A stretch of DNA of 35,908 nucleotides from Rhizobacter sp. (GTDB lineage Bacteria > Pseudomonadota > Gammaproteobacteria > Burkholderiales > Burkholderiaceae_C), in assembly GCA_021732645.1 (NCBI GenBank), contig JAKFUQ010000034.1:1-35908 (forward strand). The letters are read 5' to 3'. Below the pieces are notes generated by a model. That model did no database searches and was not told the DNA's origin. It saw nothing but the letters and a program-made list of their open reading frames with translations. A program made the translations under genes and the position numbers. Below are positions 5,466 through 25,873 of the stretch, one piece after another. Every line of letters starts with the position of its first letter. The stretch's first letter is position 1.

Positions 5466-6101
5466 ATGATCCATGTGATGCTTTGCGATGACCACGCGTT
5501 GATCCGGCGTGGCATACGCGACACCTTGTCGGATGCGCCCGACATCCAGGTGGTCGGCGAAGCCGGCGACTACGGCGAGCTGCGCAGCCTGCTGCGCACG
5601 GCCACCTGCGATGTGCTGGTGCTCGACATCAACCTGCCTGGGCGCAGCGGCCTGGACGTGCTGCATGCGCTCAAGGAAGAGGGCTCCACCTTGCGCGTGC
5701 TGGTGGTGTCGATGTACCCCGAAGACCAGTACGCGATCCGCGCCTTGCGCGCCGGCGCGTTCGGCTACGTCAACAAGGGCGGCGACCCGGCGCTGATCGT
5801 GGCCGCGGTACGCACCGTGGCGCAGGGCCGCAAGTACGTCACCCCCGAGATCGCGCAGATGCTGGTGGAAAGCCTGACCACGCCCACCACCGAGGCAGCG
5901 CATCAGAAGCTGTCGGATCGCGAACTGCAAACGCTGGTGATGATCGCGTCGGGCAAGCGCTTGTCCGACATCGCCGAAGAGCTGATGCTGAGCCCGAAGA
6001 CGGTCAGCGTGTACCGGGCGCGGGTGCTCGAAAAGCTGGCGTTGACCAACAACTCCGAGATGACGGTTTATGCGATCCGCAATGGACTCGTGGGTGAGTA
6101 G
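5466..6101 (+). CDS. NarL/FixJ-family response regulator
   Basis: MIHVMLCDDHALIRRGIRDTLSDAPDIQVVGEAGDYGEL... REC plus LuxR-type HTH (LSDRELQTLVMIASGKRLSDIAEELMLSPKTVSVYRARVLEKLAL). Confidence 0.94.
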   Translation: MIHVMLCDDHALIRRGIRDTLSDAPDIQVVGEAGDYGELRSLLRTATCDVLVLDINLPGRSGLDVLHALKEEGSTLRVLVVSMYPEDQYAIRALRAGAFGYVNKGGDPALIVAAVRTVAQGRKYVTPEIAQMLVESLTTPTTEAAHQKLSDRELQTLVMIASGKRLSDIAEELMLSPKTVSVYRARVLEKLALTNNSEMTVYAIRNGLVGE

Positions 6102-6513
6102 GCACTGCTGATCTCTCTGGTGAGACCGCGCCGGGTATTCGCCCCGGCGGGCGAGTTACTTTTTTCTGCGGGCCCAGAAAAAAGTAACCAAAAAAGAGGG
6201 CCCGAACACCAGCCATTTGAGTGGCCCGCTTCGGCTACAGGCGAACGGCAAAGGCTCTGGCACGAGAAGCCAAACCGAGGACCCGAAGGGTCGAGGCGCA
6301 GCGACAGCGCATGTTTGAACCTGAGCGAGGAAACCGGTGCGGTAGCTCGCTGGGTGTTCTCGAGCCAGAGCCTGTGAAGTAGGCGGCTGGCCGAAGCGAG
6401 CTGATCAAATGGGCTGGTGTTGAGGCCCTTTGCTTTGGTGACTTTCATTTGGGTCTGCAAATGAAAGTTACTCGGCAGCCGGGCCGAAACCCGGCGCAGT
6501 GCCTGCAAGGCAA
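6100..6513. repeat. foldback dispersed repeat, copy 1 (core 6128-6497)
   Basis: Core begins GCGCCGGGT and ends ACCCGGCGC; inverted ~110-bp arms; nested hairpins GTTACTTTTTTCTG/CAGAAAAAAGTAAC and ACTTTCATTTG/CAAATGAAAGT; outer inverted repeat AGGCACTGC (6100-6108) / GCAGTGCCT (6496-6504). Highly similar to 20497-20866. Confidence 0.9.
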
Positions 6514-6521
6514 TCAACCTG

Positions 6522-7178
6522 TCAAAACCCCAGACTGGCCAGCAAGTCGTCGACTTCGCCCTGGTTGGCCACCACGTCGGTGCGAACTGTGGCGTCCACC
6601 ACCGGCCCCTGCAGCAGATGCTGCTCTACCTTTTGCACCTGCTCGGGCGGCGCCGCCTGCACCAGCAGTTTGACCAGGCTGTCTTCGAGGTCGCCCGCCA
6701 GCGTCACCACCTTGGCGACCACCTGGCCGGTGAGGTCGTGGAAGTCCTGCGCCATCATGATGTCGGTCAGGTGGGCGTCGATGCGCGCGGTGGTGGCTTC
6801 GACGTCGGTGACGAAGTTCAGCACCGCCCCCGAGGCCACGGCCTTCACCGGGTCGGCGACCAGGGCCGCCGCAATGCGGCGGGTCTGCTCGATGATGTGG
6901 GCGTGGTCGGCCTTGGCGCAGTCGACCGAATTGAGCACCTTGTTCGCGGCGGCGCCGGTTTTTTCGGCGATGTAGTTGAGTCGGCTGCGCGCGTCGGGCA
7001 AGCCTTCGGCGGCGGCCTGCAGCTTGGGGATCACGCCGAGATGGCTCAGCGTGTCGTGCAGCTGGCGGGTGATGGCGCCGAGTTGCTGGAAGACCTCGGC
7101 CGATGCGGCGGGCGCGGCAGGGGCTTGCGACATGGCCTGTGGATGCAGGTCGGCGGCGGCGAGTTCGTTCATGTTCAT
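6522..7178 (-). CDS. cheZ: chemotaxis protein phosphatase CheZ
   Basis: MNMNELAAADLHPQ...; active-site helix IMMAQDFHDLTGQVVAKV and C-terminal CheY-binding peptide GEVDDLLASLGF. Confidence 0.95.
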   Translation of the reverse strand: MNMNELAAADLHPQAMSQAPAAPAASAEVFQQLGAITRQLHDTLSHLGVIPKLQAAAEGLPDARSRLNYIAEKTGAAANKVLNSVDCAKADHAHIIEQTRRIAAALVADPVKAVASGAVLNFVTDVEATTARIDAHLTDIMMAQDFHDLTGQVVAKVVTLAGDLEDSLVKLLVQAAPPEQVQKVEQHLLQGPVVDATVRTDVVANQGEVDDLLASLGF

Positions 7179-7191
7179 GGTGGCTGTCCGT

Positions 7192-7590
7192 TCACGCCGT
7201 GGCGGCCAGTTTCTGCATGATCTTTTGCACCTTCTCTTCCAGCGTCGCCTTGGTGAAAGGCTTGACGATGTAGCCGGCGGCGCCATCTTGCGCTGCACGC
7301 ACGATGTCTTCCTTGCGCGCCTCGGCGGTCACCATCAGCACCGGCAAGTGCTTGAGGTTGTCGTCTTTCTTGATGGCAGCCAGCAGATCGAAGCCGTTCA
7401 TGTTGGGCATGTTGATGTCGCTGACCACGAAGTCGAACTTCTGGTTTTTCAGCATGCCGAGCGCCACCGCGCCGTCTTCTGCCTCTTCGGCGTTGTTGTA
7501 GCCAATCTCCTTGAGCAGGCCGCGCACGATGCGGCGCATGGTGGAGAAGTCGTCCACGATCAGGAATTTCATGTCGGTCGGCATGCTCAT
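7192..7590 (-). CDS. cheY: chemotaxis response regulator CheY
   Basis: [38 protein letters not shown]...[16 protein letters not shown]...[42 protein letters not shown]; start near MSMPTDMKF. Confidence 0.96.
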
Positions 7591-20373: not shown

Positions 20374-20480
20374 GGGGCGGTCTCACTGCCGGCGTGATGC
20401 CGGGTGGATCGATCCTAGGCAGCCGGCTTGTTGCTGGTGCTTGGATCAAGCCGTCGAAACGGCTGCTATTCGTGTTGGGT

Positions 20481-20878
20481 TTGCCTTGCTGGCACTGCGC
20501 CGGGTATTCGCCCCGGCAGGCGAGTCACTTTTTTCTGCTGGCCCAGAAAAAAGTAACCAAAGAAGAGGGCCTCGAACACCAGCCATTTGGTGACCACGCT
20601 TCGGACAAAGGTGAACGTCAAAGGCTCTGGCACAAGAACCCAAACCGAGGACCCGAAGGGTCGAGGCGCAGCGATCCCGCATGTTTGAACCTGAGCGAGG
20701 AAACCGAGGCGGTAGCTCGCTGAGTGTTCTCGAGCCAAAGCCTGTGAAGTAGGCGGCTAGCCGGAGCGAGCCACTCAAATGGCTGGTGTTCAGGCCCTTT
20801 GCTTTGGTGACTTTCATTTGGGTCTGCAAATGAAAGTTACTCGGCAGCCGGGCCGAGACCCGGCGCGCTGCAACGCAA
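20481..20878. repeat. foldback dispersed repeat, copy 2 (core 20497-20866)
   Basis: Same orientation and 370-bp core length as copy 1; exact shared runs include a 65-nt block (20792-20856 = 6423-6487) and a 35-nt block CCAAACCGAGGACCCGAAGGGTCGAGGCGCAGCGA. Left outer end TTGCCTTGCTGGCACTGC (20481-20498) is the inverted counterpart of the copy 1 right outer end (6496-6513, 17/18 match). Confidence 0.9.
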
Positions 20879-20925
20879 GTGCAAAAGCCCTTCGCAGAAG
20901 CGAGCCCCGGCGCGCTGCCGGCAGG

Positions 20926-23224: not shown

Positions 23225-23252
23225 GAGTTCATCAACCTAAGGAGCTTTTCTC

Positions 23253-24446
23253 ATGGCATTGACCATCAACACCAACGTATCCTCGCTGACGGCACAGCGC
23301 AACTTGAGCACTTCGCAAAGTTCGCTGTCCACGTCTTTGCAACGTCTGTCGTCTGGCTTGCGCGTCAACAGCGCCAAGGACGACGCCGCCGGCCTCGCGA
23401 TCGCTGAACGTCTGAGCTCGCAAGTTCGCGGCCTGAACGTCGCGGCCCGCAACGCCAACGACGGCATTTCGCTGGCGCAAACCGCTGAAGGCGCGCTGGG
23501 CAAAGTGACCGAGTCGCTGCAACGCATTCGCGAACTGGCAGTTCAGTCGGCCAACGCGACCAACAGCGCAGACGACCGCAAGGCGCTGCAAAACGAAGTC
23601 TCGCAACTGCGTGACGAAATCGACCGCGTCGCCAAGAACACCACTTTCAACGGCACCAAGCTGCTTGACGGCTCGCTGACCGGCGCCACCTTCCAGATCG
23701 GCTCCGGCGCCGGCGAAAACATCACCGTCTCGTCGGTGACGAACGCCAGCGCCAGCAACCTGTCGAGCGTGACCTTCGGTTCCGGTGACGTGGCTGACAT
23801 CAGCACCGGCTCGGTCACGACGCTGGCCGCCATCACGGCCGGCACGCTGGCGATCACCGTTGACGGCACCGAATACGACCTGTCGGCCGTGGCCGCCGCC
23901 GACTCCGCCGAGCAGCGTCTGGGCCAAGTGGCTGAGGCGATCAACCGCCGCACCTCGGACACCGGCGTCACTGCCTACCTGTCCAAGGAGGCCGACGGCG
24001 AATACGCTTTGGCTTTCCGCTCCAGCAAGCTCGACTCGTCTGACGCCGCCGCGGCAGTCTCCATCGGTGGCTTCACCGTGGCGACCACCGGCATTGCCGA
24101 TGGCAGCCTGACGGTGGCCGCTGACAGCGTCACTGGTGTTGAGGATCTGTCGGTGGAAACGGTTGAAGACGCGTGGTTGGCCATCAAGCAGATCGACGAT
24201 GCGCTCGACCAGGTCAACAGCGCACGTGCCACCTTGGGTGCGGTGCAAAGCCGCTTCGAGGCGGCTGTTTCCAACATCGCCACGCAAGTCGAGAACACGG
24301 CCGCCGCACGGGGCCGGATCGTCGATGCGGACTTCGCATCGGAAACGGCGAACCTGTCGCGTGCTCAGGTTCTGCAACAGGCGGGTACGGCCATCGTGGC
24401 CCAGGCCAACCAGTTGCCGCAGCAGGTGCTGCAGCTGTTGCGATAA
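23253..24446 (+). CDS. fliC: flagellin (first of tandem pair)
   Basis: [54 protein letters not shown]...; C-terminal [36 protein letters not shown]. Confidence 0.98.
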
Positions 24447-24487
24447 GCGACACCGGTGTGCGCCGCGCGCTGCGCGGCGTCATCTTC

Positions 24488-24515
24488 AAAGTGCCCGGCC
24501 CTGCCGGGCACTTTT
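24488..24515 (+). terminator. rho-independent terminator after the first flagellin
   Basis: AAAGTGCCCGGC-CCT-GCCGGGCACTTTT. Confidence 0.9.
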
Positions 24516-24673
24516 CGTTTCTGCGTCAAATTAGGCAGGGCTTCGGGCACCTTATCGGGCTAATGGCGTGGCGCAGTGCTGTTGAGAATCCAACCCACAC
24601 ACAGCGGTCTTGGTGATCGCGACGGTGCCGACGGTGGGTTGGTGCCGATTTCTGTAGACGTTGGAGACCGACC

Positions 24674-25873
24674 ATGCCACAGACGATCAACACAAACATC
24701 AACTCGCTCACCGCGCAACGCAACTTGACCGCGTCGCAAAGCTCGCTGGCCACATCGATCCAGCGGCTGTCTTCGGGCTTGCGCGTGAACAGCGCCAAGG
24801 ACGATGCGGCCGGCCTCGCGATTGCCGAACGACTGAACACCCAGATTCGCGGCCTCAATGTGGCCGCTCGCAACGCCAACGATGGCATCTCATTGGCCCA
24901 GGTGGCTGAAGGTGCGCTCGGCAAGGTGGGCGACTCGCTGCAACGCATTCGTGAGCTGGCGGTGCAATCGGCCAACGCGACCAACAGTGCCAGCGACCGC
25001 GCTGCACTGCAGGCCGAAGTGGCGCAGCTGACCGATGAAGTCAACCGCGTCGCCAAGCAGACCTCGTTCAACGGCACCAAGCTGCTCGACGGCAGCTTCA
25101 CCGCCGCCAGCTTCCAGATCGGCGCCAACTCCGGCGAGGCGATCACCATCGCCGCACTCACCAACGTGAGCACCGATGGCCTGTCGAACGTGACCTATGG
25201 CACCGGCGATGTCACCGACATCAGCAGTGGCGGGATCACCACGCTGACCGCCATCGCCAGTGGCACGCTGGCGATCTCGGTCGCAGGGACCGAGTACCCA
25301 TTGGCCGGTGTCGCCGCCGCCCGCAGCTCGGAAGAGCGGCTGGGCCAGGTGGCCGAAGCCATCAATCGGCGCACCTCCGACACCGGAGTGACCGCCTACC
25401 TGTCCAAGCAAGCCGATGGTGAGTACACGCTGGCGTTCCGGTCGAGCACGGTCGATGCGGTGACGGCCACGGCAGCGGCCGTGACCTTCGGCGGCTTCAG
25501 CGTGGCGACCACCGGCATCGGCGACACGAGCGCCAACATCGCCTCGACCAATGTCTCCGGGTTCAGCGCCCTGTCGGTGGCCAGCACCGAAGACGCGTGG
25601 CTTGCCATCAAGCAGATCGACGACGCACTTGACCAGGTCAACAGCGCACGTGCCACCTTGGGTGCGGTGCAAAGCCGCTTCGAGACGGCGGTGTCGAACA
25701 TCGCCATTCAATCGGAAAACACTGCTGCCGCGCGTGGCCGCATCGTCGATGCCGACTTCGCGGTCGAAACGGCGAACCTCTCGCGTGCGCAGATCCTGCA
25801 ACAAGCGGGCACCGCGCTGGTGGCGCAGGCCAATCAGCTGCCGCAGCAGGTGCTGCAGCTGCTGCAGCGTTGA
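24674..25873 (+). CDS. fliC: flagellin (second of tandem pair)
   Basis: [54 protein letters not shown]...; C-terminal [38 protein letters not shown]. Confidence 0.98.
   Translation: MPQTINTNINSLTAQRNLTASQSSLATSIQRLSSGLRVNSAKDDAAGLAIAERLNTQIRGLNVAARNANDGISLAQVAEGALGKVGDSLQRIRELAVQSANATNSASDRAALQAEVAQLTDEVNRVAKQTSFNGTKLLDGSFTAASFQIGANSGEAITIAALTNVSTDGLSNVTYGTGDVTDISSGGITTLTAIASGTLAISVAGTEYPLAGVAAARSSEERLGQVAEAINRRTSDTGVTAYLSKQADGEYTLAFRSSTVDAVTATAAAVTFGGFSVATTGIGDTSANIASTNVSGFSALSVASTEDAWLAIKQIDDALDQVNSARATLGAVQSRFETAVSNIAIQSENTAAARGRIVDADFAVETANLSRAQILQQAGTALVAQANQLPQQVLQLLQR

Follow-up and report, generated by a model that had tools for sequence, protein, structure and literature searches.

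What does a long palindrome do where two genes run toward each other? In the window (the whole stretch of 35,908 nucleotides of Rhizobacter sp. DNA that was analyzed), a fold-back sequence lies between a LuxR-type response regulator gene and a convergent cheZ. An earlier reading of the same letters, made without database searches (the sequence-only reading), had offered three guesses for it: a MITE-like element, a bidirectional terminator or RNA stabilizer, or a structured RNA. The structured RNA proved to be the best of these, as sequence comparison supports a pseudoknot with a triple helix. What the earlier reading had missed is the unit itself, which, judging from the comparisons below, is a module of ~54 nt at each end of the element, with a predicted triple-helix pseudoknot on the outward strand and conservation beyond the Burkholderiales. 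We give a probability of roughly 0.5 to the combined reading that the element consists of paired outward RNA modules, each with a pseudoknot–triplex, and that these would provide convergent messages with defined, protected 3′ ends.

A Dispersed Fold-Back Element

The genes and elements discussed here are as follows:
5466–6101, + strand: response regulator with receiver and LuxR-type HTH domains (Pfam)
6107–6513, no strand: whole fold-back element, copy 1 (alignment of genome copies, symmetry profile)
6207–6419, no strand: interior of copy 1, being the rest of the arms and an asymmetric center (sequence comparison of copies)
6522–7298, − strand: cheZ (Pfam)
20480–20880, no strand: element copy 2, between two co-directional genes (sequence comparison)

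The outer limits of copy 1 (~6107–6513) are approximate and were set by alignment of copies within the genome and by a symmetry profile, in which the left/right symmetry of the elements faded ~55–60 nt outside the GAGTNACTTT anchor. The extent proposed previously, a core at 6128–6497 within 6100–6513, is slightly corrected by the profile to these limits. The inverted arms with their own hairpins, and the second copy, are present as the sequence-only reading described them, and its view of the element as apparently non-coding DNA between convergent genes is supported. It had also placed the outermost repeat sequence inside the stop codon of the regulator gene. That stop (6099–6101) does sit at the border of the element. 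The protein ends GLVGE*, a few residues short of the GLVGGE(x)G* of its relatives, which suggests that this border provides the stop codon and costs the protein those residues. For both strands, the predicted folding energy of 6102–6507 was far below that of shuffled sequences (z = −12.9 and −15.4).

The host genome, 2.78 Mb spread over 307 contigs, has ~10 copies of the element, in both orientations and 81–92% identical across most of their length, and 19 end modules were counted in it with a covariance model that we built of the module. These copies bear out the claim of a dispersed repeat and exclude a single-copy sequence; a segmental duplication that included flanking genes is likewise excluded, since the neighbors of the two window copies differ. 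The asymmetric center occurs in either orientation, depending on the copy, and is flipped at one orthologous site.

End Modules with a Predicted Triple-Helix Pseudoknot

On the evidence of sequence, the conserved unit is the end module in its outward reading, and the long palindrome is not the conserved part. We infer from the alignments that the module forms an H-type pseudoknot with a major-groove triple helix of ~8 layers, and hold this to be very probable. Its hairpin stem, S2, would have 13 bp; in a second helix of 5 bp, S1, the hairpin loop would pair with a tail on the 5′ side of the hairpin; and a strand of pyrimidines, L1, would occupy the major groove of S2 as a triple helix of ~8 U.A-U and C+.G-C layers. 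A GC-rich hairpin follows 3′ of each module. In the window, the modules and hairpins with their predicted parts are:
6130–6148, − strand: GC-rich hairpin 3′ of the left module of copy 1, outward strand (sequence, RNA fold)
6153–6206, − strand (RNA read outward): left module of copy 1, covariance-model match 72.3 bits; S1 GGCCC/GGGCC, extendable to 7 bp (5/5 paired); L1 third strand UCUUUUUU (triplets 8/8); S2 GUUACUUUUUUCU/AGAAAAAAGUAAC (13/13)
6420–6473, + strand (RNA read outward): right module of copy 1, covariance-model match 73.3 bits; S1 GGCCC/GGGUC (5/5); L1 third strand UUUGCUUU (triplets 8/8, including one G.U-A triplet); S2 GUGACUUUCAUUU/AAAUGAAAGUUAC (13/13)
6478–6495, + strand: GC-rich hairpin 3′ of the right module of copy 1, outward strand (sequence, RNA fold)
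20522–20575, − strand: left module of copy 2, model match 74.9 bits
20789–20842, + strand: right module of copy 2, model match 71.6 bits

All four modules of the two window copies have S1 at 5/5 and S2 at 13/13, with the triplets at 8/8 in all but one module (7/8).

Support for each part comes from variation among modules. Of 96 distinct hairpin loops, 76 had a complement of at least 4 nt just beside the hairpin; in 1000 permutations the number averaged 23 and never exceeded 35. Mutual information among 60 distinct modules of one length class gave signals at the stem, at the loop–tail helix and along a parallel L1–S2 diagonal, while the antiparallel diagonal was absent; an antiparallel pairing of L1 with the stem, as in an attenuator-like switch, is thereby ruled out. 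On the outward strand, L1 is pyrimidine-rich and runs parallel to the purine strand of S2, an orientation that matches the geometry of U.A-U and C+.G-C Hoogsteen triplets. In S1, 96.9% of cells were paired, with changes on both sides in four of the five pairs; in S2, 99.5% were paired. Slid versions dropped to 40–58%. Compensatory changes were seen in both helices.

The third strand follows what appears to be a code. An A-U pair was opposite U in 187 of 198 cells and a G-C pair opposite C in 94 of 102, while the rarer pairs were C-G, opposite C or U in 23/25, and U-A, opposite G in 3/5. With U scored as the match to A-U, C to both G-C and C-G, and G to U-A, the overall fit was 297/330 cells (permuted mean 214, maximum 232), and on 43 distinct stems it was 170/188 (permuted maximum 132). 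For interruptions in pyrimidine-motif triplexes, the best third-strand bases known are G facing T-A and C or T facing C-G. Neither S1 pairs nor triplets enter the covariance model. In an independent set of 32 modules outside model building, S1 pairing held in 155/160 cells (permuted maximum 131), and 154/160 variable triplets conformed (permuted mean 106, maximum 129). The permutations used here are of a kind that leaves shared ancestry in place. With many distinct stems and two phyla in agreement, ancestry by itself is an unlikely cause.

Comparison of the two arms of single elements also bears on what is conserved. Among 27 elements whose arms differed at four or more of 48 module positions, both modules were intact in 23 and one module in four; only 4 of 54 chimeras of left and right modules were intact. 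That the arms diverge while each module stays intact indicates that the palindrome is a by-product of two inverted modules, and rules it out as the selected feature. A plain RNA fold, which is blind to pseudoknots and triplets, yielded only S2 and the GC hairpin. By the same type of modeling, a transcript of the whole element could form one long hairpin instead, in competition with the pseudoknot. In elements of the genus, the two modules of one element usually differ in stem type (e.g., TTTTTTCT and TTTCATTT), as if identical arms were avoided.

Strand-Specific G.U Pairs

Standard pairs made up 98.8% of cells on the outward strand. One S2 pair was especially informative, as among 45 modules it was G.U in 23, U.G in 17 and Watson–Crick in 5, so that all 45 were standard when read outward, whereas at the same position on the inward strand 40 of 45 were non-standard. 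That G.U and U.G occur at this pair solely on the outward strand speaks for RNA or, failing that, for a single strand of the same sense, and it rules out a purine-motif triplex formed by the inward strand.

Neighboring Genes and Orthologous Sites

Gene context was counted only for elements flanked by called genes at both ends. Neighbors of these 60 elements were convergent in 24 cases, tandem in 34 and divergent in 2, against a background of 55, 169 and 57, respectively. The convergent excess (Fisher p = 0.001) and the divergent deficit (p = 0.0006) are indicative values, as gene calls came from a simple rule based on codon position and orthologous loci were in part counted more than once. Since tandem sites outnumber convergent ones, the element is not dedicated to convergent gene pairs, even though copy 1 sits between one. 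Elsewhere in the window, at 23252–25873, a tandem pair of flagellin genes (397 and 399 aa; 79–84% identical over long stretches) is followed by fliD.

Presence of the element is polymorphic, and empty sites do exist in relatives. The copy-1 interval is empty (~40–45 bp) in seven relatives, and in three others it holds a gene-sized region of ~840 bp that, by eye, looks like an EAL-domain gene. Copy 2 is common to two relatives and is missing from others. At a further site (C6; orthologous loci L003 and L154–L170), several species have the full element, and there are a shortened form of 267 bp, a 126-bp collapsed hairpin in one species and a bare GC hairpin in another; in one species the interior, which is asymmetric, has the reverse orientation. 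Comparison of these variants suggests that the long palindrome is prone to rapid collapse and inversion. As the element is missing or has been lost at some orthologous sites with its neighbors visibly undamaged, any role that it has is dispensable.

A Possible Role at Transcript 3′ Ends

The element can be described as a dispersed intergenic repeat in which two copies of one putative RNA module point outward in opposite directions. We propose that it is transcribed from both sides. The response-regulator message would run into the element and meet the right module in sense, and the cheZ message would meet the left module in sense, so that either convergent message would carry a knot near its 3′ end, at the far end of the element. 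There, the triple helix and GC hairpin could form a road-block to 3′-to-5′ exonucleases or to read-through polymerase, and this would give both messages a defined, protected end. A 3′-end barrier or stabilizer for the transcripts that leave it is the most likely function of the element, as judged from its sequence and placement; taken on its own, a 3′-end role for the module is a tentative assignment to which we give somewhat less than even odds.

Mobility has to be weighed against this. The modules might be the inverted ends of a MITE, a parasite moved by a transposase that is encoded elsewhere, with the RNA-like structure incidental or used in transposition as single-stranded DNA. We regard this as unlikely. 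In its favor, the copies are dispersed (6–42 matches per genus genome), terminal inverted repeats are present in that the outward modules form inverted pairs, and orthologous sites are found both occupied and empty. However, no direct repeat at a fixed distance, as left by target-site duplication, flanked 81 elements, none of 15 genus genomes had a Y1/RAYT (Y1_Tnp) transposase above the Pfam cut-off, and, among the loci read, none was a full-length element that enclosed a transposase between matching ends. The MITE-like element of the sequence-only reading is not supported, given the first two results. Strand-specific G.U pairs and covarying triplets would, moreover, be unneeded in double-stranded ends. 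Sites like the attC of integrons were dropped, as their core motif was absent when elements were read by eye.

Some module pairs enclose other genes. In an order-level relative (G187), two inverted module arms of 216 bp, 93.5% identical, flank an ORF of ~340 aa that matches the Mrr restriction endonuclease domain PF04471 (L054, 72–1584), a cargo gene within a fold-back pair. In Pseudomonas tumuqii, outward modules lie 3.6 kb apart (L276, 3019–6720), and the ORFs between them resemble PD-Lambda-2 and cll defense proteins and a RES-domain protein. Elements may, from the latter locus, accept or carry accessory cassettes.

A bidirectional transcription terminator between convergent genes would account for the placement 3′ of genes and the near absence from divergent intervals, and there is one terminator-like hairpin with a T-rich tail, on the + strand at 6137–6156. 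That hairpin reads into the element, though, and neither of the outward GC hairpins of the window copy is followed by a U-tract, which counts against a simple intrinsic terminator. Termination would also leave the conservation of triplets and pseudoknot unexplained, and 34 of the 60 sites are tandem. We consider this explanation quite unlikely.

Smaller still is the chance of an outward small RNA or 3′-UTR RNA that titrates CsrA/RsmA, in which the triple helix would be the stable 3′ part. This idea derives from Pseudomonas copies, which carry the Rfam motif TwoAYGGAY inside the element, on the outward strand and 5′ of the module, a motif proposed to bind CsrA (PMC4333381). The window copy, in contrast, had no TwoAYGGAY match at E up to 5, so the motif could be a lineage-specific addition only, and many copies per genome on both strands do not favor such a role. 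That the structure works as DNA, as a cruciform or H-DNA-like triplex in, e.g., replication or chromosome packing, is highly improbable: a module is present at both ends of the element, and DNA palindromes and mirror repeats are able to adopt cruciform and triplex forms, but the G.U/U.G preference and the outward-only standard pairing point to RNA or single-stranded DNA, and a 1-nt link across ~5 stem levels would fit A-form RNA geometry.

Relation to Known RNAs and Repeats

H-type pseudoknots with a major-groove triple helix have comparison systems in telomerase RNA and SAM-II riboswitches. The module differs from them in being multi-copy, intergenic, 3′ of genes and in pairs of opposite orientation, and in its ~8 sequence-covarying layers. 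REP, BIME and REPIN sequences are also intergenic and multi-copy, with hairpins in inverted pairs that are mostly 3′ of genes. Our module is larger than these and appears pseudoknotted, and the genus has no RAYT above the cut-off.

The window had no match above the gathering score in Rfam release 15, and no Rfam family covers the module; only TwoAYGGAY (RF01731) was found in related elements, outside the module. In Pseudomonas elements it is found immediately interior to the module, with the same outward orientation and often in both halves. TwoAYGGAY has been described as a probable RNA of gamma-Proteobacteria, Clostridiales and gut samples (PMC2864571), with its function unassigned and CsrA binding proposed (PMC4333381). 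It shares with the module the outward strand of the same Pseudomonas elements, and its taxa form part of the module's range, but it covers interior sequence and is without a match in the window element.

Literature searches covering the motif and dispersed repeats of Burkholderiales brought up only BRE and the Pseudomonas fluorescens families. BRE is a short intergenic chromosomal repeat of Bordetella, Polaromonas, Acidovorax and Delftia, one locus of which was shown to be transcribed (Hot et al. 2011, PMC3110155). It resembles the element as a short chromosomal intergenic repeat of beta-proteobacteria; by its description, it differs in having units of ~90 bp, tandem when there are several per locus, with 69% GC and not in inverted pairs. 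The P. fluorescens R-family, in the portions of its description consulted, comprises dispersed intergenic repeats with hairpins and a tail–repeat–tail bias (Silby et al. 2009, PMC2718517). Dispersed, intergenic and hairpin-bearing like our element, it is described in those portions with no mention of a triple-helix pseudoknot. Part of the element family may already be catalogued among such repeats.

Distribution across Bacteria

All 15 genomes of the genus carry the element, and the sequence-only reading's impression of similar sequences in other Burkholderiales is confirmed by matches beyond the genus. There, matches are reduced to 60–100 nt at each end, in inverted pairs 340–650 bp apart. 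With one genome per species, a 21-base hairpin pattern matched at least 117 stretches, where about 2–3 would be expected by chance as estimated from base counts. Of 398 genomes of the phylum, at least 62 had matches to the covariance model, a minimum given that few candidates per genome were scored with it. Among the matches listed, the named hosts include Acidovorax, Rhizobacter, Variovorax, Xanthomonas, Lysobacter, Dyella, Rhodanobacter, Pseudomonas, Acinetobacter, Methylophilus, Methylobacter, Thiobacillus and several Clostridia, so that named matches with a module span Burkholderiales, Xanthomonadales, Pseudomonas, Acinetobacter, Methylophilus and Clostridia. A MAG named Bordetella (L232) carries the module, and by module sequence the closest of the named loci listed are Burkholderiaceae and Rubrivivax MAGs. 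The genus-type element had zero matches in collections of plasmid, phage and E. coli genomes.

This range raises the possibility, on which we would not yet rely, that the modules form an unnamed RNA class of Beta- and Gammaproteobacteria and Clostridia: a triple-helix knot of ~8 layers with an evolving triplet code that caps transcripts, is spread by a mobile fold-back element and is a bacterial counterpart of the triple-helix 3′-end protectors of viral and nuclear RNAs. If this is true, RNA triple helices in bacteria would belong to a common intergenic repeat instead of being rare curiosities, and natural variation would read out the triplet code across many species, including G.U-A and C or U opposite C-G. 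Repeats that have so far been counted, not explained, would gain a structure and a testable role, and TwoAYGGAY in Pseudomonas would be part of a dispersed element, not a stand-alone regulatory RNA.

Arrangement of the modules is largely uniform, as ~31 module pairs at the named loci (read from the table) face outward, versus one inward pair and one same-orientation array. An array of this type was observed in Xanthomonas maliensis (L250, 6382–7151), where three modules in the same orientation lie ~310–400 bp apart with no inverted pair.
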